Assembly: GCA_020746835.1 (NCBI GenBank)
Contig: JAGPNK010000013.1
Location: 1,398,728-1,462,727 of the forward strand
From: Stachybotrys elegans
Lineage: Eukaryota > Ascomycota > Sordariomycetes > Hypocreales > Stachybotryaceae
DNA length: 64,000 nucleotides
Reading direction: 5' to 3'
Below are positions 18,476 through 54,250 of this stretch, in pieces. The notes beneath the pieces are model-generated. The model saw only the letters and a program-made list of their open reading frames with translations, did not search any database and was not told the DNA's origin. A program made the translations under genes and the position numbers. Position 1 is the stretch's first letter. Each line of letters begins with the position of its first letter.

Positions 18476-18480
18476 TACTT

Positions 18481-26800: not shown

Positions 26801-26884
26801 GACTAGCTGGCAGGAGTCCAAAATTGACGATCTGGAGATTGACTTCTTGACATGTATTGAGAAGTCACTTCTGGCTCTTTATTT

Positions 26885-27050: not shown

Positions 27051-27102
27051 GGTTTTGTCTGATGAGCTGACAAGTCCATTTCTTGCTCTTTATTCCCATC
27101 GG

Positions 27103-28595: not shown

Positions 28596-28619
28596 TTATG
28601 AAGACTGAACACTATGCGA

Positions 28620-31243: not shown

Positions 31244-31248
31244 CCCCC
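31244..31248 (-). other. homopolymer frameshift in the HET-ankyrin gene
   Basis: Five C on the plus strand. The HET-type frame enters from one side and the frame of the downstream HET-associated and ankyrin part leaves on the other, offset by one base. No plausible intron spans the point: the only GT...AG pair nearby would be under 30 bases. Confidence 0.7.
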
Positions 31249-32816
31249 TTTCGCATCGAAGGAGGTAGGGGCATTTTTCCAAGTAATGTTCACGCTCTGT
31301 CTGTCATCCTGAGTAATGTTTGTTTTGACTGAGGATATTTTGCCAAGAACGCGGGCCTTGCATTTAAGGACTGCCACCTCTTTATCGTCCCAAGTGTCCA
31401 CGGATATCTGATCAGAAAGGCAGAATTTGGCAAGTTTCTGGAAGACTTCTTTCCATGGAGTGTCGTAGTTGGCCGATAGCCCTGCCGCACTGGGATCATC
31501 CAAGCTCATGCCAAGTAAGGCATAAACCTTGTCGCGGCGGTCGGCAGCCTCACGGGTGTGGTACATATCCATCAGCTCACCCAGAGGGCGTATCCCTAGA
31601 GAAAACCTGCCTGACCGACTAGTTCCGTATCTTTCGTGTCTAGGCCGGAAGACTGCGCCTCTGATGAGGTAGACTACTGGACGGATTAGACTCTGCAGGT
31701 CCGGGTACGTTTCATACGACAGCTTCAATGCGCTTAGGCCGGAGCAGAATGCATATCCGTCGATTTCTGTGGGACCACACTTAATCAGGATATGTCGAGC
31801 TGCGGCAACCTCCTGAAGGACCTGAATCGATATTATCAATAACTTTTGCCAAAATTACTTAACGTATGTACGCGTACCCAGATGCGCTGAAACCATGGCC
31901 GCTTCAGCAGCGTGAGGATCGATTGCTGGTTCGGTTTGTAGATCGCGGAATTCGTGTACTGTTCTTCGGCAGCCTTGCGTATTACTTCGAGCGCTTGAGC
32001 GCTATCGCCTGCCGCCTCTCCAAGCCAAACAATTACGCGACTTGCCTTGGCATAGATCTTCGCCATAGACTGAACCTGCTGTCCCTTTTCGTCGTTGTCT
32101 TCTTGGTTGATACAAATAGCATCTATCCATATGATTCGTTCCATAAATCGATCTCGAAGGTGTGACAGTGCCGTGTGAAGGTTTGCCGTAATAAGTAAGC
32201 GGAAGTTGTTTCTAGCAAGAGGACAAGAACGACGATCGAATTCCCGCTTCATTTTGGCAATGGGATAATTGTCACTTTTGTCACCCGGCTGTATATAGAT
32301 AGGTTGGCGGTTGTTCGCAGAGCCCCATACGTACGATAAGGCCTCGTAGAGGTATGTCCCTTCGCCTTGTTCCTCCAGAGGGTACTCGAAGAGTTGACAC
32401 TGTATGGAGGCCTTTTTGTCTTTGTCCGGCATTAGGCGAAGCAAGCGAATACTGCCTTGTTCGGACAAAGGAGAATAGCAGTACTTATTTTGAAGATTAT
32501 CGTCCGATGAAAGCTTCGCTTCGTGTGCTTCGGCTGAAGCAGTTTCGCCATCCCCAAGGCTGTTGGAGGCTAGGTTCCTGAATTCGTTGGGGGTAAAGGC
32601 GGAGTCATCTGTCCTGACTAGTTCTGAAGTTTGGTAGATGGTGGCTGGGGTAGAGGATAATGAAGGGGGGTATTCAGCGGTCAGCTTAGCCTGATCAGCA
32701 GTCTTTGAGGCTGCCCCGTTGGACTCGGATTCCTTGTCCGCAGAGTTGTGATGGACTTTCGGCTCGCCGGACGTGGGGTCTTTGTCCTCACCATTCCGGA
32801 TACTTCTCTTCGACAT

Positions 32817-33747
32817 TTCGTAACTTTCCGACGAGGTCTATCGATGGACTCGATCCAGCGTTGGGCTGCTTTCGTTTAGAGGACGCTAGTGGTTGGGAGG
32901 AGAAGGATGCTAAGGGGGGAGGACTGTTTCGAACGGATTCTTTGCGGCCACAAACTAAAGTCTAGATTCTGACCCATGTTGCCTTGTTAATACACGCATG
33001 ATGGAGAAAGGCAGTCAGGGGTACTTACAATCAAGCTTTCATGGATAAGGAGGTAAAGAGAGAATGTAATGAGGCCCAAAACACTGCCTGGATTCAGCCT
33101 TGAGAAGCTGGCGCTGGCGGGGTAGCTGCCTAATTGAAGCCTCAGCCGCACCAGCCATGTCTCAGTTCCACGGCTTGATTGGCCGGAGAGGGATCTAGCC
33201 CCTCCTTGTGGCACCAGCCGGAGTGCAGCAACGCGGGCCCAGTTGACTGTTCGATTACGGCTTTTCGATGTAGCAGTGATGGAGTATCGGTGATTGGGAG
33301 GGCGCGGAAAAAGAAGCCTTTCGTTCCTCAAGGCATAAGACTTTCGAGCTATACAGGTAAGAGAGAAGAGGTCTTGACTCAAAGTCTGGGCTGTGGCTCT
33401 TTAGATGTGGCTGGACCGTGGCGCAAATCATGTGGCGCAGGTGGCGGTGTTCCACGGCGGTGCGTTATTTTCGAGGGCCGGAAGGAAGATCCTTTCGTCT
33501 CTTCGTTCCTCAAGGCATGGTTCGAGCTTTTTTCGCTGCAGAGAAGGACGCGAAAGAAAGAACCTTTCGTTCCTCAAGGCATTGCTTCTTCCTGATCTCA
33601 GTAGCATTACACCTTCCTCAATTCCGATTTTCATCCGAAATTTACCCCTTATCGGAGTATCAGCAAATCCCACTTTATCCCCGCACTTGCCGGTGATCAC
33701 TGATCACTGACTTCACTCTAGTGCCGCCGCTATCCCTAAGGTCCATA
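32817..33747. other. upstream of HET-ankyrin gene; repeats, no gene
   Basis: Holds the presumed promoter of the HET-ankyrin gene and three CCTTTCGTTCCTCAAGGCA-type copies. Short frames on both strands lack support. Confidence 0.4.
33317..33581 (+). repeat. CCTTTCGTTCCTCAAGGCA motif, three copies right of the HET-ankyrin gene
   Basis: Copies at 33317-33335, 33491-33518 (with an internal CTCTT insertion, as in the 28132 copy) and 33563-33581, spaced 70-170 bp, all in the orientation of the two copies at 28.1-28.3 kb. Confidence 0.75.
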
Positions 33748-34056
33748 ATGGCGTACTGTTCGCGTTGCCAAAGACCCTTCCCGAACGCTAAAGCTAGGAA
33801 GCAACACATCTCCAACTCCTCTCAAAACCATATCTGTTATAATTGCAATCGCCATCCTGATTTTTATAACGAGGATGAGCTTGATGAGCATCTAGAGACA
33901 GAGCACCATATTTGCGTTCCATGTGATCGCACCTTTAACGACTCATACTAGCTTATCCAGCATGATGAAGCGGTGCATTACATATGCAGGTTATGCAGAA
34001 AACACTGTGAATCCAGGTCCAACTTGAAGAATGCCAGCTTCGTATTATATTATTAG
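33748..34056 (+). pseudogene. C2H2 zinc-finger gene with nonsense mutation
   Basis: From the ATG, 67 codons encode closely spaced zinc-finger-like motifs (CSRCQRPFPNAKARKQH; CYNCNRHPDFYNEDELDEHLETEH; CVPCDRTF). A TAG at 33949-33951 interrupts the third, and the same frame continues as LIQHDEAVHYICRLCRKH. Finger spacing is preserved across the stop, so it is a point mutation within a finger. A glutamine codon (CAG) would fit the position and gives TAG by one C-to-T change, the direction RIP or deamination would cause. Recognisable sequence ends near 34040. The original protein was probably a multi-finger protein of the type abundant in fungal accessory regions; it is now probably non-functional. 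Confidence 0.6.
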
Positions 34057-34189
34057 CCACCGAACCCCGCTAATTTGTCAAGTATCATCAATCCCATGCC
34101 GCAAAGAAAGTTGAATGTTTTGGATGTACCACCCAAATATTCGTCACGTACTGTGCAATGGTGCTTCCAGTACAGACACAGCCACAAAC

Positions 34190-34335
34190 TGTGGCGGATG
34201 TGGCTGTACGAGCTAATCCGTTTATGACGTTCTTGTCGCCGTGTGGCCCTTGTCGCAAAAGAGAACAGCACTTATTGGCTGTAGGCAGGCAGCCTAAAGC
34301 GGCGCGCCGGCCCACACATCCGGAGCTTCAGCCTG
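34190..34335 (+). repeat. dispersed repeat B, copy 2
   Basis: Direct-orientation partner of 25885-26030, sharing the GTGTGGCCCTTGTC, TTATTGGCTGTAG and TCCGGAGCTTC blocks. Together the two copies bracket the HET-ankyrin gene and the palindrome cluster. Confidence 0.7.
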
Positions 34336-35720
34336 GTGTTTGTGTACGGCTCGCTGTGTGTCCTGTGGTGGTTGGCCACGAATAAGCAGCACAAGTCCAG
34401 AAATGGAGATCTTTGGGATGACACGAAAAATTGTGGAGCTAGCTCACTGTGTAGGGTTAAAGTTTAGCGTCCACCGATCTAAATTTTGACTCTTTCAAAA
34501 GGGTCCATTTTTGGCCCCGTGTGGCGCGAGCACAGTGCCTAGTTTGCCTCTGGAAGTTCTCTGGGCACTGTAGTATGTATGTACCAAGTTGATGCCTCAG
34601 TGGACAGGCAGCCACTTCTGTCTCCTACAACTTAAGCCTCAGAATTGGCTCAAAAGAGTGCTTTGTCCCCCAATGGCCCACGACTAACCCGAAGAGCGCG
34701 AGAAGGTTTGTGCTCTGCTCCTGGGTAATTTCTCGATCAAGACGTCGCCCAAACGATCCCTTGTACCGAACGCAGCGTCCGCAGAATTCGAGCGACCGTA
34801 AAACGATATGGAACTACGACAGCACCATCGAACCGTACCGGCCCCGACCCAAAAATAACTCCCCTGCCTTGACTGATTTCAATGACTAGTCGATCAGAGC
34901 AAATGCGACAACTTGGGCCCCAGTTGTTATCGAGACATTTCCGCCCTCGACATATGGATCAGGGTCTAGCACGTAGCCTTCCGACAGCTGAGCCCCATAT
35001 GAGTATGAGCCGTCATCCACGGCATTCAGTACAGTTCGCGGGGGCAGAGGTTCGAGTGGTCGAGGTGTACAAATCGGATACCGCTTGTCCATAAATACCG
35101 CGAGAAAGTACCCGCCCCCAAGTGGATGGAGCGCGCGTCCCACACCTCGGACGGCAGCGACTGACTGCTCACAGCGTATCGCTTCGTGTGTCTATTGCCG
35201 GATGACCGGGAATCCTTTGTCCTCTCCTGGGTGGTGATACGACGCTGTCAGGAGGCAGGTCATTACCCTAATATGTCTTCGAATCCCAGCCGAACCCTCA
35301 TCTAGGGAAGGGCTCTGCAAAGGCTCCAGTCATCTAGAGCCAACCGATCAAGCTCACTTTTTTTTTTTTTTTTTTCTTTCTCAAAGAGCTGCTTCTGCCA
35401 GGCACCGGCCAGGTGGGTGCGATGATGTGACTTCATGGTGAGCGTTGTGTTGACGTGGCTGGGCAGGTTGTGCCGCAGGATTCGGCGATTCTGCCTGGGT
35501 ACATTCAGATTGGAATGTAACCACATGGACATGACCAAATTCGCCAGCGTGGATGGCCCCGGGTTTCAGGCAGTTTGTGGAGAGTTTCGTCAGTGGATTA
35601 AGCAGCTTGGCAAGGCTGCAACACCAGGCGCGAATCTACTCCCTGGATCTGGCAGCGCATCCAAGGACGGTTAGCGCAGACCAGGCGATTTGGGTAGGCT
35701 AGATAGACCTTAGAGCGATA

Positions 35721-35811
35721 GTGGAAGGGGAGGGAGAACCAGACCTAGGTGTAGAGGCAGCAGAGAACACAGGGTGGATGGGACCATTCTGCAAATGCTA
35801 TCTTGGACAGT
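35721..35811 (+). repeat. direct repeat left of NLR2
   Basis: GTGGAAGGGGAGGGAGAAC, then after a ~29-bp insertion ACACAGGGTGGATG...CATTCTGCAAATG, then CTATCTTGGACAGT. The same string without the insertion is at 41303-41364, just after NLR2. Confidence 0.8.
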
Positions 35812-36362
35812 AGCAATATCGCTTTCAAGTTCAGACCGCTAAATCTTTGATAAGTGGCGTGCCATTTTCGGACGCTGAATGAATGGGTGACGACGTGGCA
35901 GTTGTGGCAGTTGGGAGCATTGGCCCAGGCAGCCTTAACGGCACTGGAGGGCGGTAAAACGTTACTCCGGAACACTGTCGCCCTTCCGTCGTTTTCCAAA
36001 CGCGCTCCGCTTAGTACCACGACTCTGGCCTGCACAGATAGCCGTTCGAGCTGCGCGATCTACCGTATCGACAGCTTTTACCTACCTCGGATGGCTGTTT
36101 CCTAGCCTTTGTGAATTATCATATCTCGATTTTTAGAAAAGGACACCCAGACAGAGCTTGTAGGCGTTGAGTCGCAGCCATGGCTTTGGCATGCATGCAC
36201 GCGGATCAGCTGTGGCTGTGCGATTGGACCAATAATTGCCAGCCTGCATGACCACAGCCTCGTCAACCCCTCACTTTGAAATATTATCAGTCATGCGAAA
36301 AACAATGTCAGCGTTTACGTTGATTTTATTTTGCAGTTGCCAACAATAACCCTGTGCACGTC

Positions 36363-39300
36363 ATGGGAATCTCGAAATTCTTCCAACGCTCGAAGGGCTC
36401 CCATCATGGGAGCAGCAACGCGGACAAGCAAGGCACCCGTGACAACCAATCTGGCCCAACACCCACGCGACTCTCAGAAGCCAGCTCTTCGGTAGCCGCT
36501 GTATCCCGAAACTCGCCATCTCTCTCGGCGCAAACCTCGCGCCCTACTTCAAGGCCACTCCGAGCTACAGAATCGCCAGTTCTTGAGGCACCCGGAACTT
36601 CGAGCCCAACAGTGCGTCCCATCACGCCGCTTTCACAGATAACACCACTATCAGACAACGCACCTTCACTTTGGAATCGTGCTTATGAGGCTCTGCGTGA
36701 TGAGGATCCTCAGCTAGTGGATCGATACGAGAAACTCCTCTCGAGAGAACTGGAGGAACATCGTAAGGTCTTCATCACTATGGGTAACCTGCCAGCTAAT
36801 ACTTTCAATAGCCAATAGTATAGTTGCACCACAGGATATGCGGCCGCGGAGCGATGACCTAGATGATACTAAGAATCGAATGGATTGCAATTCTGACAAG
36901 CGCCAGAGTCAGCTTAAGGCAATCATGGACCGGGGCCTACAGAGAGCGGACGAGAAGCAGATAAAATACACTCTCTTTGGCCATGACTTTGTTCTAAAGG
37001 AGCAGGTCACGCAAGCTGCTCAATTCATCCAGGCTATGAAAAACCTTGTCGACGAGGCTGTTAAGGTGTCACCGGAGGCATCTCTTGCATGGGCCGGCGT
37101 CTGTGTTCTGCTCCCAGTGTTGACAAATCCAAGCGCAGCAGAAGAAGCAAACCGCGATGGCTTGTCGTACGTCACTTTTCGCATACGATACTATATCGAA
37201 CTCGAACGTCTTCTTTGGCCGAAAAATCTTGTCAAGCCAGGGCTTAAAGTGGAGTTCGAAAGCCATATTGTTGACCTCTACCAGCACATCCTCGAGTTCC
37301 AGATCAAGACGGTGTTACGATTCTACCGGAACTGGCTCGCTACTGCTAGTCGGGATGCGATCCGCTATGACGGTTGGGAAGGAATGCTCTCCAAGATTAA
37401 GGAACGGGAGCAGATCATCCGGGAAGAATCAAGCACTCTGAACACGGTCACTTCACGGAACACTCTGGAAGACATTAGCAAGGCGGCAGAACAACTATAT
37501 GCCGAAATGCGTGCCCTGGTCTCCATCGCGATGGAACAGCTTGCAGAGCAAAGGCGCACAAAGTATGTTCCGCCTTCCTCGTCCATGAATGTCTACTAAC
37601 AGTGATTTAGCCAAATACTCGAAGATCGGCCCATTGACCTTCCCGTCATCTACGAAGCGTGCTTCGACAGTGCCGACGTCCAAGACAGCCCGAAATGTGA
37701 GACCGGAACTCGACTCAACATCCGCGAAACAATATATCAATGGGCAGACGACTTCTCCAGTGAGCCCTTTTTCTGGCTGGTGGGCCCTGCTGGGACCGGC
37801 AAATCTACCATCGCACGGACTATTGCTGATACGTTCTCTGGCGAGAGGCGCCTCGTTGCTGGCTACTTCTTCAAGAGAGGAGAACAGGGCCGCAATGACA
37901 CCACACGACTCTTTCCAACACTTGCCAAGCAGCTGGCTCAGACGATGCCTTCCTTTAAGGGTTGTCTTCGGAAGTCACTAGACGGTCTTGACAGAGACGC
38001 CGTAGAGAAGAAGGGCCTTGAAGTTCAATTCGAAAAACTCCTATGGCTTCCCTTGGGGGACCTGCCCGCAATCGATACAAGTCAACGGCCCAAGGTGATC
38101 ATTATTGACGCCTTGGATGAATGTGAGCGGCTCGAACATCTTCCACGGATTCTAGCTCTGCTAGGCCAGCTTCGTGATATCAAGACGGTACACTTGCGTG
38201 TTTTGTTTACAAGCAGGTCCGCTCCTGAGATTGTGAATGCTTTTAGGCCGTTCACTGAAGAGAAGACTGTCCGCAGTCTAGACCTTCACCAAGCATTCTC
38301 TCAAGACACCAGGACCGATATTAAAATTTTCCTCGAGAAAAGATTTGCATACATCAGAACGAAGCGTAGAATCCAACAAGACCCTTGGCCTGCTATCGAG
38401 GATCTAGATCGCCTGGTTCAGCTGGCTACAAACCCACAGCCCCTCTTCATCTATGCTGCAACCCTTTGCCGGTTCGTCTATGATGAGAAGCGCCCATGCA
38501 ACCCAAAGAACCAGCTCAAGCTGTGGCTTAAGCAATGCGAAGACGGCAAGTCTCAGCTACATCAAATCTACGACCCTATTCTCAGTCAGGTGTTCGGCAA
38601 CGAAGAAGCAGAATCTGGCCAGCAGCTGCAGTTCCTAGGGGCTTTGGTTCTTCTCGCAACTCCTCTGCCTGCTCTCTCTCTCGCTGTGCTTCTCAGCTTG
38701 GATGTGGATGACGTGAATTGGTGGCTTCCAGAGTTGCATGCAGTGCTAGAAATTCCTCCCGAGCCTCATCGTCCCATTCGACTACTACACAAATCGTTCA
38801 GCGACTTCCTTCTCAGCCCCAGGGACACAGGGACGAGCAAGCATTATATAAATGCTACAGAAACACACGCTATGCTAGCGGCACAATGCATTGAACGCAT
38901 GAAAGCAGGGCTCAGACGGGATATCTGCGATATTCGAAAGCCGGACATGTTCAGAGATGAAATCGACAAGCAAGTGATAGATACACATATCCCCGCCGAT
39001 CTCCAGTATGCATGCCTGTACTGGGTTTACCATTTACAACAAAGTGAAGGGTTTCTGGGACATAACGTTCACGTGTTCCTCTACACGCATCTTCTTCATT
39101 GGTTAGAAGTTTTGGCACTGCTGGGTAAGGTCTCGGATGGTGCTGCTGCGATTAAACAGCTTCTTAGTATATGCCAGGTCAGTGAAGGTGTTCTCGTGCT
39201 ACGGTTGAGCTAACATTTCTCATAGCAGTGCCCCAATGCACCGGGAGAACTAAGCGACCTCGTCAACGATGCTAATAAAGTTATTGCAAGTTTTGGATCT

Positions 39301-41151
39301 ATAATTGAGAAGACACCTCTTCAGATCTATGGGACGTTGATAATGTTCTCTCCAGTTGCGAGCAAAGTGCGGCAAAGGTTTTGGGACCAACGCCCACGGA
39401 ATCTTCGTATTCAGGGCGTAAAGTCTGATTGGGATGCGCACCGCCAGACACTCGAGGGCCACAACGATCGGGTCATGGCAGTGGCCTTCTCACCAGACAG
39501 CCGGGTAGTAGCATCGGCGTCAAGAGACAGTACAGTACGACTCTGGGATGCAGCAACAGGCGCGCACCGCCACATACTTGAGGGCCACACTGATTTAGTC
39601 AGGGTAGTGGCCTTCTCGCCGGACGGCCAGGTGGTAGCATCAGCGTCAGATGACGAGACAGTACGGCTCTGGGATGCAGCAACAGGCGCGCACCGCCAGA
39701 CACTTAAGGGCCACACTGATTGGGTCAGGGCATTGGCCTTCTCGCCGGACGGCCAGGTAGTAGCATCAGCGTCAAGCGATAATACAGTACGACTCTGGGA
39801 TGCAGCAACAGGCGCGCACCGCCAGACATTTGAGGGCCACACTGATTGGGTCAGGGCATTGGCCTTCTCGCCGGACGGCCAGGTAGTAGCATCAGCGTCA
39901 AGCGACAAGACAGTACGACTCTGGGATGCAGCAACAGGCGCGCACCGCCAGACACTCAAGGGCCATAACGATCAGGTCAATGCAGTGGCCTTCTCGCCAG
40001 ACAGCCAGGTGGTAGCATCGGCGTCAGATGATAAGACAGTACGACTCTGGGATGCAATAATAGGCGCGCACCGCCAGACACTCGAGGGCCACAACAGTTC
40101 AGTCAATGCAGTGGTCTTCTCACCAGACAGCCAGGTGGTAGCATCGGCGTCAAGAGATAGTACAGTACGACTCTGGGATGCAACAAGAGGCGCGCACCGC
40201 CAGACACTCGAGGGCCACAACAGTTCAGTCAATGCAGTGGTCTTCTCACCAGACAGCCAGGTGGTAGCATCGGCGTCAAGCGACAGTACAATACGACTCT
40301 GGGATGTAGCAACAGGCGTGCACCGCCAGACACTCGAGGGCCACAACAGTTCAGTCAATGCAGTGGCCTTCTCGCCGGACGGCCAGGTGATAGCATCGGC
40401 GTCAGATGACAAGACAGTACGACTCTGGGATGCAACAAGAGGCGTGCACCGCCAGACACTCGAGGGCCACAATAGTTCAGTCAATGCAGTGGCCTTCTCG
40501 CCGGACGGCCAGGTAGTAGCATCGGCTTCAAGCGATAATACAGTACGACTCTGGGATGTAGCAACAGGCGTGTACCGCCAGACACTTAAGGGCCATACTG
40601 ATTGGGTTAGGGCAGTGGCCTTCTCGCCGGATGGCCAGGTGATAGCATCGGCGTCAGATGACAAGACAGTACGGCTCTGGGATGTAGCAACAGGCGCACA
40701 CCGCCAGACACTTGAGGGCCACACTGATTGGGTCAGGGCATTGGCCTTCTGGCCGGACGGCCAGGTAGTAGCATCAGCGTCAAGCGACAAGACAGTACGA
40801 CTCTGGGATGCAGCAACAGGCACGCACCGCCAGACACTCCCGTTAGGCTTTACTCAAATTCTTGCTTTCGACCCACCATCCGGCACGCTACTGATTACTG
40901 ATTTTGGAGCTATAGACCTGCTTACAAACTCTCTAGCAAGCGGATTGCCTTCCCCTGAGGAAACTGTCTTATCTCCAGCTAGCTGCAGTCTTGGCCTCTG
41001 TCCCGACAAAATCTGGATTATGAAAGGGAGTGAGAAGGTCCTGTGGCTCCCTAACGAGTACAGACCAACGTCATCAGCCGTGAGAGGTTCGGTGATGTTT
41101 ATTGGTTGTTCATCGGGGCGTGTCATTCATATTGTAGCTACAATGATGTGA
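36363..41151 (+). CDS. NLR2: NACHT-WD40 NOD-like receptor (about 1547 aa, four exons)
   Basis: Exons are 36363-36762, 36812-37562, 37611-39177 and 39226-41151 (the last acceptor may be three bases later). All introns are 48-51 bases and frame is kept. A Ser/Pro/Thr-rich start is followed by an NWD/NACHT-N-type helical region (SLWNRAYEALRDEDPQLVDRYE; EASLAWAGVCVLLPVL). The NACHT domain has Walker A GPAGTGKST (~442-450) and Walker B KVIIIDALDECERL (~545-558). A helical region ends in IIEKTPLQIYGTLIMFSP. Eleven 42-residue WD40 units lie at ~978-1440. The C-terminal cap (KIWIMKGSEKVLWLPNEYRP) is clearly related to that of NLR1. The architecture matches fungal allorecognition and immune NLRs of the HET-E/HNWD type. 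It is transcribed opposite to NLR1 and the HET-ankyrin gene, is flanked by short direct repeats and starts ~260 bp before the recombinase gene's tail. No disabling mutation seen. Confidence 0.85.
39435..40835 (+). repeat. WD40-coding 126-bp tandem repeats in NLR2
   Basis: Eleven 126-bp units. Variation concentrates after the Gly-His pair (NDRVMA, TDLVRV, TDWVRA, NDQVNA, NSSVNA) and at the ASRDS / ASDDK / ASSDN positions. Four consecutive units (6-9) share NSSVNA. The frame also stays open on the opposite strand, an artefact. Confidence 0.85.
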
Positions 41152-41302
41152 TGCTGGCAGCATCGCTCGATCACAACTAACGATATTCCTCGTCACGTTC
41201 CTTATATCTCCACATAGCGTGCCATAAGAAGGATTTGGGAGAGTGAAATCTGTTTATCTTTGATGCTCAGACTTCGGTATATTGCGGGCTGGCTCATTAC
41301 TG

Positions 41303-41364
41303 GTGGAAGGGGAGGGAGAACACAGGGCGGATGATATCATTCTATAAATGCTATCTTGGACAGT
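41303..41364 (+). repeat. direct repeat right of NLR2
   Basis: Partner of 35721-35811. The shared parts are GTGGAAGGGGAGGGAGAAC, ACACAGGGYGGATG and AAATGCTATCTTGGACAGT. The repeats enclose NLR2 and little else. Confidence 0.8.
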
Positions 41365-41408
41365 TACATAATGATAAACCGTTGCTGTAACCTAACACCA
41401 TCTATCTG

Positions 41409-44084
41409 CTAGGGCTTGCTTGTGATCATTTGTCGGCGTCTTGCTTTCCGCTGCCTCCTCTGCTTGACTTGCTCCGACGATCGCAGAGTTACACCATGGA
41501 CCCTGTACACATGGGACCGGAACTCATCAAGACATTTCAATTGGAGATTCCGACATTTCGGATGCTCACATAGGATCTTTTCACCGCTCTGCTCAGCCTG
41601 CTCGCGCCCCACCAGATGCTGCCGGTCGAAGTGGTCGTTCATGACGGTAGGTCGACAATATATAAAGGTACGCTCCCGTGAAGAAAGCCGCTCGTCGCCA
41701 ATACAGTCTGGGCATTGTGCCCCATGCATAAGGAGAGGGAAGGGATCAGGGCCAAGACCCTTGTCCGGCTCTGCTGGCTCGGTCTTGATCGGTGCGCTAG
41801 CCGTGACTTTGCGTTGAATCCGATCGCGCTTTGCCGTCTCTCTCATGTCACAGAGCGTGACCATCAGGTCGATAACCTGGATCCTCCGTTGCAGGATGGC
41901 GTCCTCAGTAAGATCGTCAGGTTGGCGGCAAACAATCTCCGCCAACTGTGCTCGCTCTGGGATAGAGACATTGATGGTAGGCTCGACGTACTCCTCCTCT
42001 TCCTCGCCACGCGCCTGTCTTTCAATATCCCAGGTGGGACGGTTATAGAAGTAATGTTCGCGGTATTCCTTGACCACCTGCCGGTTGCGCTGGGCACGTT
42101 TAGTGCGAATCTCATTGGTAAGCTTCCGGATCCTTTCTTCTGCTTCGTGCCCTTCGATTCGATAGCGGCCCTGCTTTAGCCGGGCTCGCTCCTGCTCAAG
42201 CTCGACAATCTCGGGGTCCGGCGCGAGATTAGCCCATACCTCCTCAGGTACCATGTCCGCTGTCGCCCGAGGATCGCGTGTGAGACTGACGTGTGCGAAG
42301 AGTCGGAAAAGCTGACTTTCCTTCTCTGCTTCTAGGAAAGCATTCTGCATATCGAAGTTGGCAATCTCGTTTAGATACGCGTGATGGAACGTAGCAAACT
42401 GAGGGTCGTGGCGCATCATTTGGTCACGCACAGAGTCCGGTGCATCTCCTAGAACAGGACGGGTCAGCATGTCATTACAAGTCAAGAAAATAGCCTTCCT
42501 TTCTATATGTAAGCAAGCAGCGCGCAGAACATACCGTTAGCAGCATTTGAGGCGCCACGTCTCGCGAATCTAGGAGTCCACTTCTTTTCGTGTCCTGAAT
42601 CGAGACTTTGCTGACCCATATCATCTCTGAGCTTAGAATAGAGCATGGCCTCAATGCCCGAGAGCGTTGTCCCTCGATATCGACGAAAAACAGGGGTTTT
42701 GAGCATGGACTTCTTCCATCGAAGCGGAATGCATTGCTGGAAGCGGGGCGGTTGTTTACTGAATATTGCTGATGCATCTGTCAAGCTTGGCGCATCGAAT
42801 GCTTTGTCGTGTAGAGCAAGCGAGAGCATTGTCGAGAGGGCGCAGAATATAATTTTCCTTGTTGGAGAGAAAAAGAAAATCGTCCTATTTGGGTAAAGAT
42901 TAGTTAGAGGCTTCGACTCCAACTTCAAGCGAGAGCAACATACGGCTTGGGCTTGTTGTCTGCTCCCTTGTGATGGATGAACTTGATGGCCATCGCTGGG
43001 ACGCAACGCCCAGTGACGGGGTGCCGCACAATCATCATCAGTATATCCTCGTAACAGAGAGCCTTTGGTCGCCCACGCCCTACGGTCTCCTGAGAAAGGA
43101 GGCCTTCAAGCAGTTGAGAGTCTTTGTCAAGAGCTACCTCTTGGTTCTCGCCTTTATCTTCACCATCGTCTGAAGCGGCTGAGGGGGCCTCAACCACCTT
43201 TCGACCGAAAAGATGTTCGGTCGATCCGTCTTTCGGCTTCTTCCGTTCGCCGTCCACAAGCTCAGCTGGCCGTGCTCCAGTATAACAAAGAAGTTGATAG
43301 CAGCAGTTCAGCTGTATGCGGTGTCGCTCGCCGGGGAAGACTATAGTATCGTATGCGAGATTGAAGGTCAAGATAACAAGCAAATTATCCACGTTCAGTA
43401 CCGGCTTTCCGTCGGTGTTTGGAGGGCGATGACCGAAACGAGGGAGAAGAACACATCGGTAATACTATATCACGTCAATCATCTGCATTTCAAACAGCCT
43501 CTAAGCCATGTATAGGACTCGAAGTGTCTACAAACCTTGTATACCTCTTTAGTATCATTCCGATCCATGTACTGACCAGTCACGGTAGTATATAGCTGCT
43601 GGAACTGCCGAATGTACTCTTCGCAAGTGGCCCATGATTTAATCTTCGAATTTTCGCAAATGTAAAGGATGAAGTCCTGTGTCGTCTCCCGCTTCAAGCT
43701 CTTGATGGTCAACTTCCAATCACCAACCTGCAGGTCCTCGCAATATCTACCGAGTTATCAGAATAGGTCAGCACTCTGCACCTCGGGAAAGAGCCGAACT
43801 GCTTTGCATAGTCCCCGACGCATATGCACTCACCGCTGCCATTTCCTAAAGATCCCGCTGACATTGATCTCCGTTTCCTGGGAGTACTTCGACTTAAAGA
43901 AACGAACCTTGCTCAACTGCGCACGATGAGAGGCATGCTGTTCAACCGAGAGCGTTGGTTTCTGCTTGGCAGCTCGATTCTCTGCTTCTCGTGCTGCAAA
44001 GCGTTGAAGGAATGCGGTGTGGCTTTCCTGGATGAGGGTCGCGGTCGCTCGTTGGGTGCGCGAGGAAACGATGGCGTGGGACAT
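41409..44084 (-). CDS. DUF3435 tyrosine recombinase, Starship captain-type (790 aa, five exons)
   Basis: Exons are 44084-43834, 43746-43536, 43464-42944, 42884-42535 and 42448-41409; introns are 87, 71, 59 and 86 bases, all in frame. Key family segments span splice junctions (KWQR|YCEDLQVGDW, KEVYK|YYRCVLLPRFG, NKPKP|TIFFFSPTRK, NAANG|DAPDSVRDQMMRHDP), so the model is well supported. Recombinase motifs: box-I arginine in CYTGARPAEL (~219), RFARRGASNAANG (~434-446), MMRHDP and the candidate nucleophile tyrosine in FHHAYLNEIANFDM (~469). The C-terminal half has a coiled acidic region, then zinc-finger-like clusters (CPDCIGDE...; CEHPKC...HVYRVH). DUF3435 proteins that begin Starship elements are called captains; they catalyse integration and excision of the whole element. 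This one has no stop or frameshift, starts ~400 bp from the AT-rich junction and points toward the NLR cluster. Confidence 0.88.
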
Positions 44085-44480
44085 CGTCTAGCGAGGGTAT
44101 TTGAAGCCACGAATGGTCAGTTGGAAATAGAGAGAGGAGCTAATGGGCACACGGAATGGAGGCCAGTTCGGCCTTTTAAGGGTGGAGGCCATGCCGACCA
44201 GCCAACCCTCAACAGCCACTTCTGGATGTTGAATAAACGCAAAGCAGAAGATGGAAGACAAGAAAAGGAACCAGGGGGACGAAAACTGGTCCCTGGAAAT
44301 ATGGGTCCCATGCATGCTGTGCCCCTCCATGGAGCACGTGCCCAGGCGGCTGGGAGAAGTATATAGTACTTGCCCCGCGACCTCTCCCGCTGGATTTCCC
44401 CTACTGCTTGAGCCTGCTAAAACGGCGGCACTTTCCGCCAGATTTGGCAGGCTCAGCAGCGCTTCCGCTATTTAATATGT
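44085..44480. promoter_or_regulatory. captain upstream region, candidate element terminus
   Basis: GC-normal DNA between the recombinase start codon and the AT-rich island, with no gene. It contains the double hairpin and ends at the abrupt composition change near 44470-44480. By analogy with described Starships, the 5' terminus and the captain promoter would be expected here. Confidence 0.5.
44404..44459. repeat. nested inverted repeats (double hairpin) at the AT/GC junction
   Basis: The outer arms are CTGCTTGAGCCTGC and GCAGGCTCAGCAG (one extra T in the left arm). The inner arms GGCGG and CCGCC enclose CACTTT. It lies ~10-20 bp from the start of the AT-rich sequence. A recombinase-binding or terminal structure is possible but unproven. 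Confidence 0.75.
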
Positions 44481-44568
44481 AATAGTATATAGAAATAAGT
44501 CTAGAGTAAGCTAGAAAAGACAGTAAAGAAAAACTAATATAAGCCTTTTAAACTTTATATTTAAAAGA
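44480..44568 (-). repeat. RIP repeat family, fragment truncated at the junction
   Basis: Inverted copy of the family's beginning (TAGTATATAGAAATAAGTCT ... AAGCCTTTTAAACTTTATAT). Compared with the copy ending at 52316, homology stops at ~44480, where the GC-normal sequence begins, so the copy is interrupted. Confidence 0.75.
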
Positions 44569-44699
44569 ATACTCTTTTTATTATTTATATTATATTCCTT
44601 TTAAAGAATTATTTCCCTTTTTATTTTTAATATCTTTATTACTTAAAGTTTAAAATGTTTTATTATAATATTATTAATTATTAACTATATTATTTTAAA

Positions 44700-44960
44700 T
44701 TTAAAGCTAGTTTAATATTCCATTATATTATATGTCTATATATATATAGCTTATAATATTATAGCTATTTGTAACTTAATTACTTAGTTATTTAATTAAT
44801 TAGTTACTTTATATAAATAGTTAAATAGTTTAATAATAGCCTTATTATTATTTCTCTTTACTATTTATAACTATATTAGTTACTAGGGTACTAAATACTA
44901 TTTTTACTATTTATTTTTTCTTTACTATTTATACTTTATACTATATATTCTTTTCTATTT
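44700..44960 (+). repeat. RIP repeat family, 3'-end fragment
   Basis: Only the terminal portion is present: the CTTTACTATTTATAACTATA phrase, then the degenerate ACTATATATTCTTTTC terminus. Confidence 0.65.
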
Positions 44961-45031
44961 ATATTTAAATTATTATTTTTAACTATTATATTATTTTAGT
45001 TAGGCTTATTATTATATATAAAGCCTTTTAT

Positions 45032-46332
45032 TCCTTTTAAATATAAAGTTTAAAAGGCTTATATTATTTCTTTTTTACTATCTTTTCTAGCTTACCCTAG
45101 ACTTATTTCTACACTTTATTACTAACTAAATAAATTCCTTACATTATATAATTAGCGCCTAGCTTCCCCTATAGCTCCTTAATATTATATATTAGTTATT
45201 TTATATAGCTATAGTTTCTTTATAGCTTCCTTTATAACTATATAGCTTTTATATATAACTATAGCTTTTAATATATTACTTCTCTTTATAATATTATATT
45301 ATAAAAACATTAAATATATAATTTAATAGTAAAAGTAATTAATTTTATAACTAAACTAAAAAACTAATTAAAATCTTATATTAAAAAACCAAGCTAATTA
45401 TACTAGAGTCCTTTATAATCCATTTATAAAATTAACTTTCTAACTAAAGTATTTATTATTAAAAAGCTAGCTTTTCTTAGTTTACTTACTCTTTTACTTT
45501 TTATATTTTAGCTTTAAATTAGCTAGAGAAGGGAAATAATAGAAATTATTCTATTATATTCTAAACTATTAGTAATACTATTATTAAATCTCTTAGAGTA
45601 ATTTATTTTATAGATAACTTTATTAGTATTTATAATAGTAATAGCTAAAACTATTATAGCTACTAAAGTAGCTATATTATTATAAATATAAATATTATTT
45701 ACTTATATTTTAAGTAACTAATATAAATAAATAGTAGAATATAAATAATAAATTTATTTCTTTTAAACTAGAGGCTTAAGGGCTTTATATAGCTATAAAT
45801 AAAGTAAATTAAACTTTTCTCTATTAATAGCCTAAAGTAATAATAACCTTATATAGTTATAGTTATAGACTTTTTTAGTATAACTTTATAATTATAATTA
45901 ATTAAAACTTTCTATTAATATTATAACCTTATAGTTATAGCTAGTAATACTTTCTATTTAAGTATAGATTATAGTAAGGCTTTTATAATATTAGTAATTT
46001 TATTTAATAAGTTAACTAAAGCTTTCTAACTAAATACTATTAGTTAAAGCCTTTTATTTAGTTTAATTCTACTCTAACTCTCTTTTAATATCCCGTTATA
46101 TTATATACCTATATATATATAGCTTATAAAAGTATAAGTTATAGCTATTTATAACTCGGCCACTTAGCTATTTAGTTAGTTAATTACTTTATATACTTAA
46201 TAATAGCTTTATTATTATTCTTCTTTACTATTTATAACTATATTAATTACTAAAGTATTAAATACTATCTTTACTATTTATTTACTTTTTACTATTTATA
46301 CTCTATACTATATACTCTTTTCCTTATTATAA
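45032..46332 (+). repeat. RIP repeat family, nearly full copy (1.3 kb)
   Basis: Begins with the TATAAAGTTTAAAAGGCTTA phrase and ends with ATACTATATACTCTTTTCCT, like the copies at 52.8, 54.25 and 56.5 kb. Internal landmarks shared by the family: CTAGACTTATTTC, GGGCTTTATATAGCTAT, and TATTATTCTTCTTTACTATT. Confidence 0.75.
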
Positions 46333-47384
46333 AGCCTTTATTATTTTTTTCTTTATTATTACTTTATTTATAGTCCCTTTATAAATAGTATTATTTATTT
46401 TTATATAATACTATTAATTAGTTTTAGCTTTTTTATACACTTTATACTTAGAGTATTAATATTTATTTAATTCTTCTCTTTTTATATATTCTTTATTATA
46501 TATATAAAGTACTAGTTATATACCTATAATATTATAAATAGTTTATTTTATTATTTAATATTCTATAAGTTTTATTATACTATACTATTTTTAAAGTAGT
46601 TTATTTATAACTTATATTAGGAAATAATTATTTTATATTTTTTTATATTAATATTTCTTATAGTTATAGTAATAATATAAGACTTATAAAATAGTATAGT
46701 ATTATTAATAGTACTAATATAAAATAGAGTTATCTATAGGGTTTTCTATTTAAATATTTATTAGTGTTTATACTATAGAGATTTTATATAAATAGAATAT
46801 TCTATTTATATTCTATTATTAAATTATAGTATTTATTCTTTTAATTATAATTTATACTTTCTTTTATTTTTTAGTTATTATTATTTCTTATAGTACTATA
46901 GTTATTTCTAATATTTATTCTAAGTATTATAAATTAATATATTATTTTAATAAGTTTTTATTTATTTAGTTTTACTATTCTTTATAATTTTCTTTTAGTT
47001 CTTTAAAAATAAAGTTAAAATAGAAATTTATTAATACTTAAACTACTCTTTTTTTTATTTTTTATTATTTATTATATAGCTATAACTATTTATTATCTCT
47101 TTATAAAAATTTTTATTTAGTTTTTAATACTAATATCTATTTTTTTTACTTTTTAAAATAAATAGTATAAACTTTTTTTATTACCTTTTTTACTTAGTTT
47201 TTTATTTAGTAAATTTATATTATTATTTTCTTTACTATTTTCTAATTAACTTAGATTTATTTATTTTATATTAGCTTTTATATATATTCTATTTAGTATA
47301 TATAATTTATTCTAGTTTCTTTTTATTTAAATTATTTTTATTAATTTTAAACTTTAAGTATTATATAGCTTTATATTTCTTTTT

Positions 47385-47518
47385 TTATAATAGCTTTATT
47401 ATTATTTCTCTTTACTATTTATAACTATATTAATTACTAAGGCACTAGGCATTATCTCTACTATTTATTTATTTTTTACTATTTATACTTTATATTATAT
47501 ACTCTTTTTCTTATTATA
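47385..47518 (+). repeat. RIP repeat family, 3'-end fragment
   Basis: Carries only the terminal phrase ending ATATTATATACTCTTTTTCT. Confidence 0.65.
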
Positions 47519-47775
47519 TTTCTTTTTATTAGCTATTTAATTATTAGGATTTTAATATAGTTTTTAACTTTAGTAATTACTTTAATAAAATTATATATAT
47601 AGCTTTATAAATCCTTATTATAAAAGTAAATATATATTAAATTATCTTTATATTATATATATACTAATAATAATAATTATTATTTAGAAATATAACTTTA
47701 TTTCTTTAATAAGAATATTTTATTTATTTTTCTAAATTAAAGTTATCTCTTTATATATTATTATAAGTATTTTAA

Positions 47776-48710
47776 CCCTTCTAAGTATAAAGTTTAAAAG
47801 GCTTATACTATTTCTTTTTACTATCTTTTCTAGCTTACCCTAGACTTATTTCTATATACTATTACTAACTAAGTAAGTTCCTTATATTATATATACCTAG
47901 CTTTCTCTATAGCTCCTTTATATTATATATATATAGCTTCTATATATAACTATAGCTTCTAATATATTACTTATACTTTAGCTATTATAGTCTATTCTCT
48001 TTATAATGTTATATAATAAAGGCATTAAGTATATAATTTAATAAGGCAATAAGAGTAATTAATTTAAAAACTAATTTAAAAAACTAACTAAAAACCCTAA
48101 TTAAAAAACTAAGCTAAGGCTTCTAAAGTAAGCTAGCTCTATAGCTAGTATTTACTATTACTTTTAATATATTTTAACTCTATCTCTAGCTTTCTTTCTA
48201 GCTTTTTATTTCTTTTTTTATTTCTTTTTTTAAGCTTTAAGTATAATTTCTTATTAAAATTAGTATATATTAAAAGTATATAAAAGTTATTTTATTTCTA
48301 AACTATTAATAATACTACTATTAAATAGCTTAATGAAAACTATTTAAAAGAACTTACCTTAATAATAATATTATTAAAAATATAAATAGAAATAATAACT
48401 AAAGTTACTATAGCTATTTATATAGCTTTAGTAAGGAGATTTAATTTCTCTACTATATTTATATTACTATTTAATTCTATAATAATAAATATAATAGGTT
48501 TAAGTAATATAAATAAAGAATTCTTTTTTTTTAAACTAGGGGCTTAAGGACTTTATATAGTTATAAACTAAAAGTAAAATAAGCTTTTTAATAGCTTTGT
48601 TAATAGCTTAAAGTAATATTATAGACTTTTCTAGTATTAATAACCTTATAATTATAGTTAGTTAAAGCTTTTTATTAGTATTATATATAATAGTTAGGTT
48701 TTTAATTATA
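47776..48710 (+). repeat. RIP repeat family, 5' two-thirds
   Basis: Starts with CCCTTCTAAGTATAAAGTTT and follows the family to about the GGGCTTAAGGACTTTATATA landmark, then diverges. The right boundary is approximate. Confidence 0.65.
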
Positions 48711-50830
48711 ACTAAGTTTAATTATATTAGAGTTAGTTATTAATAAAGTAATTAAAGTATATATACTATTAAGTATATATTATATTTAATAATAGTTAAA
48801 TATTTAATATATATAGTAATTAAAATAATTAAATTATATTAATAGCTAGTAGGCTTTTAAATAAATACTCTTTATAAAATCCTTTTATTTATATACTATA
48901 TAGACTAACTATTTAGTAAAACTATTAGTTTAAAACTAAAGCTTACTTTAAACTATTTAGTCTAATAAGTTTTTAATTTCCTATAGGTTATATAATCTAT
49001 TATATAACTTATATAGTTATTATATTATAATATAATATCTTTCCCTAGTAGTCTTTTATTTTAAAACTATATAAGAAATCTATTTATTTCTATTTTATTA
49101 ATACTTTTTTCTTTTTCCTTTTTACTTTTAAATAGCTAACTATATTATATAGTACTTATAAATATTATAAAATTTAAATATTTATAGAATCTATTCTTTT
49201 TATTAATTATAATATAAATATACTATATACTTAATGTTTTTTCTATAATTACTACTATATTATAATTAAAAATACTAAATACTATTATAAATATATATTA
49301 TAAAAGGTTTATTATAATAATATTTTAATAGCTTTAGCTTATATATTTTCCTTACTTTCTTATAGTCTTTTTATTTAATTATAGTTTTAGTATAATTTTT
49401 AAATTTTTATAAAACTTACTTATTTTAAAAAAAGAATTCTACTAGTAATAACTTACTATACTTATTAAATAAACTCTTTACTTTTTAAACTTATATAGCT
49501 ATAGCTATTATATAATTATTCTATATTTAAAAATCTATATAAATATATACTTTTATTAGAAAATTACAATTTATTATAATATTACTTAGTTAAATAAAAA
49601 TAATAGTATTTTTTATTTTTAAATATTTATAAGTTTTACTTAGTAAAAAAGTTATAAATAATAGATATTCTTAATAATATTAATTAGTTTTCCTTTAAAC
49701 TTAGTTTTAATCTATAGAATATATTTCCTTTACTTATTAATAATACTATTAAATTTCCTTTTAAATATAAAATAAATATTTAAATAGTTTTTATATATTT
49801 TCTAATTTATTATAGTTTTTCTATTTAATAAAGTATTTCTATTAGTTTTTTATTTTTATATTCTTTTTATAGTTAAGAATTTCTTTAATTTTCTATTTTT
49901 ATTTTAAAATAGGTTTATTAATATATACTTTTCTAATATATATAGTTCTTTTTATAAATTCTAATAGTAAAATATAAAAACTAAATATAACTATACTTTA
50001 TTTAATAAATTAAGTTTATAATTATTATTAAAATATATTTTTTAATTAAAAATAGTTTAATATAGTAATAATTAACTTTTTTATTTAATTATTTTATATT
50101 AATATTTTTTATAGTAAAATAAACTATATTTCTTTTTAAATAATTAATCTCTTGAATTATTATTTATTATAGTATTTTTTTATTTATTTTTATATAAAAA
50201 GAATTTCTATTTAAAGCTATTTATATAGATTCTTTAAGTTATTTAACTTTAATATTATTTTAAATACTAAAAGTCTTTTTTTATATTTTTAATAAATATT
50301 AAATATAAATCTAAAGTTTATATAAACTAATATAAGCTTAATAGTTTTATTAATTAATATATTATATATAAATTATATTATAAATAACTTTTCTATTTAA
50401 TTATTTTATTTATAGTTAATATAGTATTATAAATATACTTTAAGTATTTAATTTATATATTTAATTTATTTATTTATTTATAGTTTTTAAACTATATTAA
50501 GTTTATAGTTTAAACTAATTTATGTTATAAAGTATTACTAAAACTATAAAAAAATAGTATTTCTCTATTTATAATAATATTTAATAGTAATTTATAAATA
50601 ATAATAATATATTATAAAAATATATATAAAAATTCCTTTATATTTATTAATTTATTATAAAAAATATAAAAATAAAACTTTATAAATCTATTAATAATAA
50701 TTAAAATACTATTATAAGTATATTTTATTACTAAATTATATAATATTAATAGTTTAATAATAAAATCTATAAATATTAACTTTTATAGTTAAAGTAATAC
50801 TTAAAGAAATTATAATTCTTTATAAAACTT

Positions 50831-52316
50831 ATAATAAGAAAAAGAGTATATAGTATAGAGTATAAATAGTAAAAAGTAAATAAATTGTAAAGATAGTATT
50901 TAGTGCCCTAGTAATTAATATAGTTATAAATAGTAGAAAAGAATAATAATAAGGCTATTATTAGACTGCTAGGGTAGCTAACTAGCTAAACGGCCGAGTG
51001 GCCGAGCCATAGATGGCTGTAACTTTATTATAAGCCATATATACGCAGGCATGTAATACAACGGGATATTAAGATACATATATATATACAGAGGGTTAGG
51101 GCGGGATTAAATGGAAGGCTCTAACTGATAGTGCCTAGCTAGAAAGCTTCGGTTAACTCATAGCAAATGCACATGCTAGATGAACGCTAACTAACTGAAT
51201 AAAGTTACACTATAAAAGCCTTACTATAACTATAACTATAACCTATGCCTAGAAGGAGAGTACTACTAGCAATGCTAATAGAAAGCTTTAACTAATGACA
51301 CTAGAAAAGCCTATAATATCGCTCTAGGCTACTAATAGAGAAAAGCTTATTTTGTAGCCTATAGCTATATAAAGCCCTTAAGCCCCTAGTTTAAAAGAAA
51401 AGAATTCCTTATCTACATTACTTAAACCTAGTCTACTAAAATTAATATTAATATAGAATTAAATAATAATAATAATAGTAATAATATAGCTACTTTAGTA
51501 GCTATAGTAGTTCTAACTACTATCCCTATCTATATCTCTAATAATATTATTATTAAAGTAAGTCCTTTTAAGCAGTCTAATAATAGTATTACTAATAGTA
51601 ATAGAATAACTTCTATATACTGCCCTTATATAGTAATTTTAATAAAGAATTATAGCTAAAGTCTAAAAAAAAAAGTAAAAGAAAAAGCCCTAGACTGCCT
51701 AAGAAACTATCTAAAAGGCTAGTAGTAGAGACTAGCTATATTAAGAATAGCTATAAATAGCTATATATAGAGCCCTAGAATAATTAGTTTAGTTTTTTAG
51801 TTAGGGTTTTCAGTTGGTTTTTAGAGTTGGTTTTTAAATTAAACCCTTTTATTACTTTCTTACTAAATTATATACCTAATGCCTCTATAATATAACTGCA
51901 TTACTATTAGCACTTGCTATAGCTTAATATTATTTAATTAAATGCTAATACTATTGTAAAGAGCTATCCTTAGATATAGTTAAAGACTGGAAAGATTAGT
52001 AGAGACTATAGTAATATAAGGGCAAATAATAGACTATAGTAGCCAAAGTATAAGTAATGTATTAAAAGTTATAGTTATATATGGAAGTGTATAATACGTC
52101 GGAAGCTATAGTTATATATAGAAACTATATAGCTATAAAGGAACATACACTATAAAGAAGCTATAGTATATAATGTAAAGGAGCTATAGAGAAAGTATAT
52201 AATGTAGGGAATTTACTTAGTTAGTAATAGTATATAGAAATAGGTCTAGGGTAAGCTAGAAAAGATAGTAAAAAAGAACTAATATAAGCCTTTTAAACCT
52301 TATATTTAGAAGGGTT
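50831..52316 (-). repeat. RIP repeat family, inverted and least degraded copy (1.49 kb)
   Basis: Starts with the mirrored terminus (ATAATAAGAAAAAGAGTATA) and ends in CTTATATTTAGAAGGGTT. It keeps more GC than the other copies (for example CGGCCGAGTGGCCGAGCC near 50991), so it is the best template for recognising the original element. Confidence 0.8.
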
Positions 52317-52820
52317 ATAAAACTTATATTATTATAATTTAGCCTTATTATAAATATTATATTATATAATAATATATTTAATATATTTCTTTATATTAAA
52401 AAACTTATAGTTTTACTTTATTTATTCTAGAGTTTTTATAACTCTTTAATATTTATATATAAATAATTTATATATATATTAAATAAAGTTATTTTTAATA
52501 TTATTTAATATTTAGTAATATAATATTTATTTACTATTATTTATACTATTATTATATTTTTTAATTTTTTATAATAGTAAATATACTATTTTAAAAATAT
52601 TTATAATACTTATATTATAAAATCTATATTTTTTTATTTATTTTTTTAAAACTATATTAAAAGTATTAAAACTATAAAGCTATTTAATTTATATTATTAT
52701 TTTATTAGAGTTATAATAGTTAGTAATATAATAATTATTAATAACTTTATATTTTACTTTATTTAATAAATAAACTTTCTCTTTATATATAGTTTATTTA
52801 ATCTCTATAATAGTATTTTA

Positions 52821-54142
52821 TCCCTTCTAAGTATAAGGTTTAAAAGGCTTATATTAGTTCTTTTTTACTATCTTTTCTAACTTACCCTAGATTTATTTCC
52901 ATATACTATTACTAACTAAGTAGGTTCTCTATATTATATACTTTTCTTATAGCTCCTTTACATTATATATTAGCCTTCTTATATAGCTATAGCTTCTTTA
53001 CAGTGTATATTAACCTTCTTATATAACTATAGTTCCTTTATAGCCTTCTATACATGACTATGGCTTCTAATACATTATATACTTCCGTATATAACTATGG
53101 CTTCTAATACATTGCTTAATAGCTCTCTATAATAGTATTAGCATTCGATTAAACGTTATGTTATAGAGGCATTAGGCATATAATTTAATAGTAAGAGGGT
53201 TTAATTTAAAAACCAACCTTAAAAACTAATTGAAAACCCTAATTAAAAACCAAGCCAATCATTCTAGAGCCCTCTATTCATGGCTATTCTTAATATAGCT
53301 AGCCTCTACTACTAGCCTTTTAGATAGCTTCTTAGGCAGTCTAGGGCCCTTTTTTTTATTCTTTTTTCTAGACTTTAGCTATAATTTTTATTAGAATTAC
53401 TATATAAGGGCAGTATATAAAAGTCATTCTATTATTATTAATAATACTATTATTAAAAGACTACTTAAAAGGACTCACTTTAATAATAATATTATTAAAG
53501 ATATAGATAGAAGTGGTAGCTAGAGCTACTATAGCTACTAGAGCAGCTATATTATTACTATTATTATTATTATTTAAGTCTATATTAATAGACTAGGTTT
53601 AAGCAATATAAATAAGGAATTTTTCTCTTTTAAGCCAGGGGCTTAAGGGCTTTATATAGCTATAGACTGAATAAGCTTTTCTCTATTAGTAGCCTAGAGC
53701 AATAGCTTTTCTAGCTTAGTTGAAGCTTTCCATTAGCATTATAGCGCTCTCCTTCTAAATATAGATTATAGTTATAGTTATAGTAAGGCTTCTATAGTAT
53801 AACCTTATTTAATAAGTTAACTAAAGCTTCCTAGCCAGGCACTATTAGAGCCTTCTATTTAGTCTAATTCCACTCTAACTCTCTATATATATATATCTTA
53901 ATATTCTATTGCATTATATGCCTGCGTATATATAGCTTATAATGTTATAGCTATCTATAGCTTAGCCACTTAGCCGTTCGGCCAGTTAGCTACCCTATAT
54001 AGACAGTCTAATAATAGCCTTATTATTATTCTTCTTTACTATTTATAACTACATTAGTTACTAGGGCACTAGACACTATCTTTACTATTTATTTACTTTC
54101 TACTATTTATACTCTATACTATATACTCTTTTCCTTATTATA
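52821..54142 (+). repeat. RIP repeat family, nearly full copy (1.32 kb)
   Basis: Starts CCCTTCTAAGTATAAGGTTT and ends ACTCTTTTCCTTATTATA. Moderately degraded; it faces the inverted copy at 50831-52316 across ~0.5 kb, so the pair forms a large imperfect inverted repeat. Confidence 0.8.
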
Positions 54143-54250
54143 GTATTTTATTTTTTAAAATCTTTAAAATACTATTTTATAATAACTCTTTAAATTATTT
54201 TAAAATATTATTCCTTTAATTATATATTTTTACCTTTATAATTCTAGTTT

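Follow-up and report, generated by a model that had tools for sequence, protein, structure and literature searches.

Within a 64,000 bp stretch of the Stachybotrys elegans genome (the window; C5:1398728-1462727, its right edge being the end of contig C5), a DUF3435-type tyrosine recombinase gene lies beside a sharp change in base composition and in front of two NLR genes and a HET-ankyrin gene. The question raised by this locus is whether these genes belong to a Starship, of which the recombinase would be the captain and the NLRs part of the cargo. An earlier note, made from the letters of the window, had suggested an unrecognised giant mobile element to the left of approximately 44.48 kb. We have followed up this suggestion by searching one genome (43.4 Mb, 61 contigs) for further copies, shared ends and empty sites, and have bounded the element at 56,144 bp, of which 11.66 kb lie beyond the left edge of the window. 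We conclude with high confidence that it is a Starship, i.e. a cargo-carrying DNA transposon whose 5'-most gene is its captain, and that a TTAC site within RIP-mutated repeats was its point of insertion. What the earlier note saw is confirmed, and its reading is largely borne out. The Starship reading rests on the element's ends, by the direct repeat, by three complete copies, by paralogous empty sites of one copy and by purifying selection on the captain.

Results

The captain gene and its copies

The captain was modelled as five exons (Table 1), the fourth intron (86 nt, 42534-42449) being set using paralogues, and over its whole length the predicted protein shows 100 % identity to the NCBI protein 'FluG domain-containing protein [Stachybotrys elegans]'. 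Residues 180-642 match DUF3435, the sole Pfam domain, with an E value of 9.5e-64 (score 216 bits, cut-off 25.8), and R219, K320, R436, R437 and Y469 are invariant in all 34 aligned captains, which were hand-picked from 120 listed of 232 protein matches. The recombinase is as intact as the earlier note had described it; counting against the Starship reading, the position that matches, by spacing only, the second tyrosine needed by HhpA is a phenylalanine (F434). No other gene precedes it at the 5' end, and it is oriented into the element, its start codon lying 398 bp inside the terminal TTAC, and its coordinates confirm the claimed leftward transcription toward NLR1, the HET-ankyrin gene and NLR2.

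A genome search for DUF3435 gave 41 exon-level matches, and the close captain group comprises five loci, namely that of the window (C5) and those on contigs C16, C34, C44 and C7. The first four are free of internal stops under the window exon model, the C34 captain being without the stop codon seen in the others so that its reading frame continues, and the C7 copy is broken off at window position 43666. Between the four copies dS is 0.11-0.31 and dN/dS is 0.10-0.13 in all six pairs, which therefore indicates long purifying selection and no very recent duplication; no pair represents a fresh jump. A second DUF3435 group consists of five near-identical copies (C40:56701, C40:65692, C61:2069610, C53:3726 and C7:163475), of which the three compared have at least 5.8-7.3 kb in common at 95-97 % identity within the stretches compared. 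All five contain one TGA in the first matched stretch, perhaps within an intron, and this group looks like another recombinase element, amplified more recently.

Table 1. Coordinates of the element and its features (window numbering unless a contig is named)
Feature	Position	Strand	Remarks
Whole element	C5:1387066-1443209 (window -11661..44482)		56,144 bp
In-window part of element	1..44482	.	Rest runs 11.66 kb past left edge
DUF7924-like gene	3679..4860	+	25.3 bits, just below Pfam cut-off of 27
BCS1-like AAA ATPase	7150..8412	-	Part of 3' block; C34 and C44 have it too (C16 outside the search)
NLR2	20266..24675	-	NACHT_N - NACHT/NPHP3_N - WD40 repeats
HET-ankyrin gene	28596..32837	-	HET 31836-32837; ankyrin repeats 28596-31289
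NLR1	36324..41151	+	NACHT_N - NACHT/NPHP3_N - WD40 repeats; convergent with captain
Captain, DUF3435 tyrosine recombinase	41409..44084	-	790 aa from five exons, free of internal stops
Captain exons	44084-43834, 43746-43536, 43464-42944, 42884-42535, 42448-41409	-	
Terminal inverted repeat GCGGAAGCGCTGCTG, captain end	44454..44468	-	Partner C5:1387068-1387082, 11.65 kb left of window
Captain-side (5') tip	44470..44482	-	Reads TTACATATTAAAT on the captain strand
TTAC direct repeat, captain end	44479-44482		Second TTAC at C5:1387062-1387065
Flank beyond element	44483..64000	.	AT-rich repeats, RIP signature, up to contig end; includes uninterrupted relatives of the 5' flank repeat
Exact GCGGAAGCGCTGCTG places	C5:1387068, C5:1443181, C16:272624, C34:577947, C34:612552	+, -, +, +, -	
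Complete elements	C5:1387066-1443209; C34:577945-612580; C16:272610-329127		56,144 bp; 34,636 bp; 56,518 bp

Ends of the element

The sharp AT-rich junction, noticed earlier about 400 bp from the 5' end of the captain, was placed at 44482/44483, which leaves 398 bp up to the start codon; the element has a GC content of 51 % and the flanks have one of 17 %. The RIP composite value is -0.57 in the element (no signature) and 1.25 and 1.34 in the flanks (signature), the right-hand AT-rich block being visible for 19.5 kb only because the window ends at the contig end. The absence of a RIP signature from the element was observed although copies with blocks that are 84-97 % alike coexist in this genome, the repeats of which are heavily RIP-mutated.

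Read in captain sense, the tip has the order TTAC-ATATTAAATA-GCGGAAGCGCTGCTG, and the 15-mer recurs in inverted orientation at the far end of the element, where AT-rich DNA turns to normal GC. Its exact matches in the 43.4 Mb number five, every one an element end: both ends in C5 and C34, and the captain end only in C16, where the 3' end carries it with one mismatch (C16:329111, minus strand; one of 11 one-mismatch rows genome-wide). The inverted partner lies 34-56 kb away in the correct orientation in all three complete copies, once with a mismatch. The longest inverted match between the terminal 40-mers of the element is 15, and pairs of 40-mers drawn at random from it (n=3000) gave at most 10. 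Terminal inverted repeats are usual in Starships, though not universal. Reading of the junctions gave TTAC at both ends in three of three complete elements, so that the direct repeat expected at the two ends was found and is accompanied by an inverted one.

At the captain tip, TTAC and ATTAAAT are common to C5, C16, C34 and C44, and these four ends are alike as far as TTAC, beyond which they diverge into AT-rich DNA. With stricter scoring the alignments to the window end at 44509 (C34), 44484 (C44) and 44482 (C16); lenient scoring extended those of C34 and C44 into the AT-rich flank, which counts against the Starship reading. On the 3' side, the terminal 862 bp have two other full-length matches, both of 91 % and both beginning at the predicted last base of the element (C34:577945 and C16:329127), together with six shorter matches of 69-76 % located elsewhere. 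All three complete elements (Table 1) are larger than the minimum of about 15 kb, with cargo, that is taken to define a Starship.

Empty sites

Restored sites fit TTAC(N7)A in three of three complete copies, which is weak evidence because the single A falls in AT-rich flanks. Empty sites were sought by joining the flanks through one TTAC by script (flank-TTAC-flank) and searching the product against the genome. Among the 28 rows obtained with the joined C34 flanks were three uninterrupted paralogous matches across the joint, on C56 (93 %), C30 (91 %) and C7 (88 %), and the C34 locus itself matched as two halves. At the site itself C56 and C7 read TTACTATTTTTA and C30 reads CTACTATTTTTA, and all three are without the whole 34.6 kb. 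An empty site was thus found for one of the three complete copies, by paralogous sites in one genome. The same genome search gave no convincing empty site for C16, the only spanning rows being on C22 (68 %) and C33 (64 %), and none for the window copy, each flank of which was matched separately only. The empty site that the earlier note had called for was therefore obtained for a sister copy and not at the window locus itself.

Frame and variable cargo

Domains were scanned in 23 of the 39 window ORFs of at least 150 aa and in 10 of the 14 ORFs of at least 120 aa in the element stretch L018, short exons and C5:1387066-1388727 being left out. Both window NLRs show the NACHT_N-NACHT-WD40 architecture expected of allorecognition NLRs, and are by type putative receptors of self/non-self recognition. 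The 126 bp WD40 units of NLR1 are about 81-90 % alike, and a straight read-through of NLR2 meets three in-frame stops at two places, which are putative introns. A mitochondrial carrier gene is also among the cargo of the C5 element, and no DUF3723, patatin or ferric-reductase gene was found among its scanned ORFs.

The copies have in common the captain end and, partly, a 3' block, with variable NLR-bearing cargo between. In C5, C34 and C16 the 3' end carries a Myb-like gene (protein identity 84-86 %), and the DUF7924-like gene is present in C5, C16, C34 and C44 (85-92 %). When C5 was compared with C34, leaving out C34:588401-600000, blocks 84-97 % alike (one overlapping 234 bp row, 77 %) extended over window positions -11661 to 9026, beyond which only a stretch of 182 bp (18787-18968) was alike until the captain was reached. 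The cargo of C34 includes neighbouring ORFs that encode PNP_UDP, NACHT-like (NPHP3_N) and ankyrin domains; a gap of 2.4 kb, in which a 384 aa ORF lies, separates these receptor ORFs from the captain block. In C16 the region just past the captain (C16:277382-283960) holds Helitron-type ORFs (DUF6570, Helitron_like_N, PIF1), behind which the closest NACHT lies approximately 15 kb from the captain. In the stretch of the C44 element fragment that was read (C44:13106-16702), two protein kinases are encoded, one APH-type and one fungal-type. The Myb-like and DUF7924-like genes also have matches full of stops at C19:232088-240425, where this lineage has probably left a copy inactivated by RIP.

The NACHT profile PF05729 matched at least 74 places genome-wide. 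The three complete elements account for four of these, with two each in C5 and C16, against 0.25 expected by length; this figure (Poisson, 1.4e-4) is rough, NLRs being clustered and the counts being lower bounds drawn from the best 92 of 101 candidates with a profile that missed the C34 receptor. The absence of a PF05729 row from C44 counts against an NLR in every copy; it proves little, however, because the C34 receptor was missed. In a HET profile search, the best 150 of 309 candidates included C5:1430602 and C7:2368 and no match inside the C16 or C34 elements.

Window positions 27.9-43.7 kb are matched on C7 as a plain block without the captain end, and here NLR1 appears as a mosaic. The two sequences are 87-98 % alike over 33.4-37.4 kb and 86-100 % over 40.8-43.7 kb, whereas the NACHT part of NLR1 and the sequence following it (37.4-38.9 kb; C7:8000-9300) are only 53-78 % alike, far below their surroundings; after 38.9 kb similarity is 84-87 % until the WD40 repeats, the repeats lying outside the profile. 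In the diverged part the NLR1 protein has 61-63 % identity to C7, and one C7 row contains a TGA. The simplest reading is replacement or fast diversification of the NACHT part, decay of the C7 gene being an alternative account. From the offsets of flanking matches, the ankyrin array of the HET gene (window 28700-30600 against C7:1-1225) is approximately 1.6 kb longer in the window.

Discussion

The findings above can be set against two accounts in which the NLRs would not be cargo. According to one of these, the mobile unit is the captain gene alone (about 3.15 kb), Crypton-like, with the NLRs adjacent by chance; indeed, the homology of C16, C34 and C44 to the window ends only 73, 91 and 121 bp past the captain stop codon (41336, 41318 and 41288, respectively). 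However, these end points differ by up to 48 bp, the partner of GCGGAAGCGCTGCTG lies tens of kilobases away in every complete copy, the 3' block is common to its last base, and the C34 empty sites are without all 34.6 kb, by which this account is refuted for C34. A Crypton is little more than its recombinase gene, which is not what was found here, and this candidate, dropped once the 15-mer and the 3' end had been identified, now seems very improbable. We consider it slightly less probable still that the boundary is an ordinary AT-rich one, with a resident 'solo' captain and copies produced by segmental duplication of gene-rich blocks. The plain C7 block without a captain end and the AT-rich blocks that adjoin other captain loci as well would both suit such an origin, but duplication yields neither TTAC direct repeats nor an inverted repeat restricted to ends nor uninterrupted paralogous target sites; it is disfavoured for C5, C16 and C34, and the truncated C7 block may have arisen in this way. 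That the boundary is no more than a shift in base composition was ruled out by the junction evidence.

A different doubt, compatible with the element being a Starship, concerns the window copy, which may be a recombinant of two Starships at two sites, with the captain end and its flank from one insertion and the 3' end and its flank from another. Both junctions are at TTAC, yet the flanks resemble two different repeat families, each switching at TTAC. Eight of twelve compared matches to the 5' flank reach the joint (the other four end earlier) and all eight continue TTACTAA, whereas in two of two compared matches to the 3' flank a different sequence precedes TTAC. Moreover, no genome-wide row (56 rows; best 40 of 430 candidates) with an identity of 80 % or above covers more than 20 bases on each side of the joint. 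Against a recombinant, seven rows among the compared stretches span the joint at 66-71 % and, among the same best 40 of 430 candidates, two do so at 75-77 % (C4:1454344 and C4:1454783) and six 3' flank rows of 82-91 % do not stop at TTAC but continue for 13-15 bases within the 5' half. Spanning rows are hard to judge in AT-rich DNA, and a chimeric target or a later rearrangement near one end would have the same appearance. On balance a recombinant origin is a serious possibility that falls somewhat short of an even chance.

For the Starship reading that we prefer, the most likely mechanism may be outlined. The captain would bind both element ends (TTAC and inverted GCGGAAGCGCTGCTG) and excise the element by tyrosine-recombinase chemistry, possibly through a circular or other intermediate; reinsertion at a new TTAC(N7)A site would leave a TTAC on either side. 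Copies would exchange the cargo that separates the captain from the more conserved 3' block, and the element may be active at present and its NLR cargo beneficial. A bolder hypothesis holds that a fixed frame (captain end and Myb/DUF7924/BCS1 3' block) carries NLRs that are swapped whole in a slot near the captain, that their nucleotide-binding part is diversified by recombination, and that the element spreads recognition alleles or excludes rival elements. The slot would be occupied by NACHT-WD40 in C5 and, by similarity, C7, and by PNP_UDP-NACHT-ankyrin in C34, but the distant C16 NACHT behind Helitron-type ORFs and C44 without a NACHT row speak against this hypothesis, which in its entirety appears rather unlikely.

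The captain may have a history outside the Hypocreales. Among the matches listed, the closest named full-length captains outside the host are those of Xylaria bambusicola and Ustulina deusta (Xylariales), at 83 %, one further protein (among 120 listed of 232) also reaching 83 %, and named Hypocreales captains do not exceed 76 % over at least 90 % of the length. In a FastTree analysis the host captains group with the X. bambusicola and U. deusta captains with support of 1.0, far from a Stachybotrys chartarum captain; this is one midpoint-rooted tree of 37 unevenly sampled proteins (34 hand-chosen from the 120 listed and three paralogues), and its fit with transfer between orders is only suggestive. 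The Myb-like gene has 16 database matches in all, the best foreign one (66 %) being from S. chartarum, and this contrast between nearest relatives suggests that the frame may not have had the same history as the captain. Proteins of the DUF7924-like kind occur widely (984 matches, 120 of them listed).

By features that one genome can test, the element is a new member of the Starships with an NLR-bearing variable region, and no paper joining Stachybotrys with Starship and captain was found in a limited literature collection (Starship databases being outside its scope). In this genome a single Starship lineage is represented by three copies whose ends are complete and by two partial copies, with a common frame and different NLRs. 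It follows that Starship ends and an empty site are findable in a single assembly, without a second strain. Copies with different NLRs, together with the diverged NACHT pair of window and C7, open a way to test for selectable allorecognition alleles on the element, and S. elegans offers a natural way to ask if such elements move immune-type genes.

The element resembles the Starship superfamily of the Pezizomycotina in its inward-pointing DUF3435 captain, which leads the gene order from the 5' end, in its short direct repeats and inverted terminal repeats and in its tens of kilobases of cargo. The window NLRs, with NACHT and WD40, are similar to fungal NWD-type NLRs of the HET-D/HET-E kind, but their N-terminal domain is NACHT_N and not HET. 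Passages in three papers place NLRs among Starship accessory genes (PMC12134995, PMC12153272, PMC12506042), and a passage in another states that fungal NLRs can ride on transposons (PMC9815663). The target of the Hephaestus family is given as TTAC(N7)A, and that of Nebuchadnezzar from Aspergillus fumigatus as TTACA(N5)AAT (PMC12153272). The restored sites of all three complete copies are like the former, a motif that alone assigns no family, and the captain tip fits the latter in two of four copies (C5 and C34). From known Starships the window element differs in its host, Stachybotrys elegans, and in its frame of Myb-like, DUF7924-like and BCS1-like genes.
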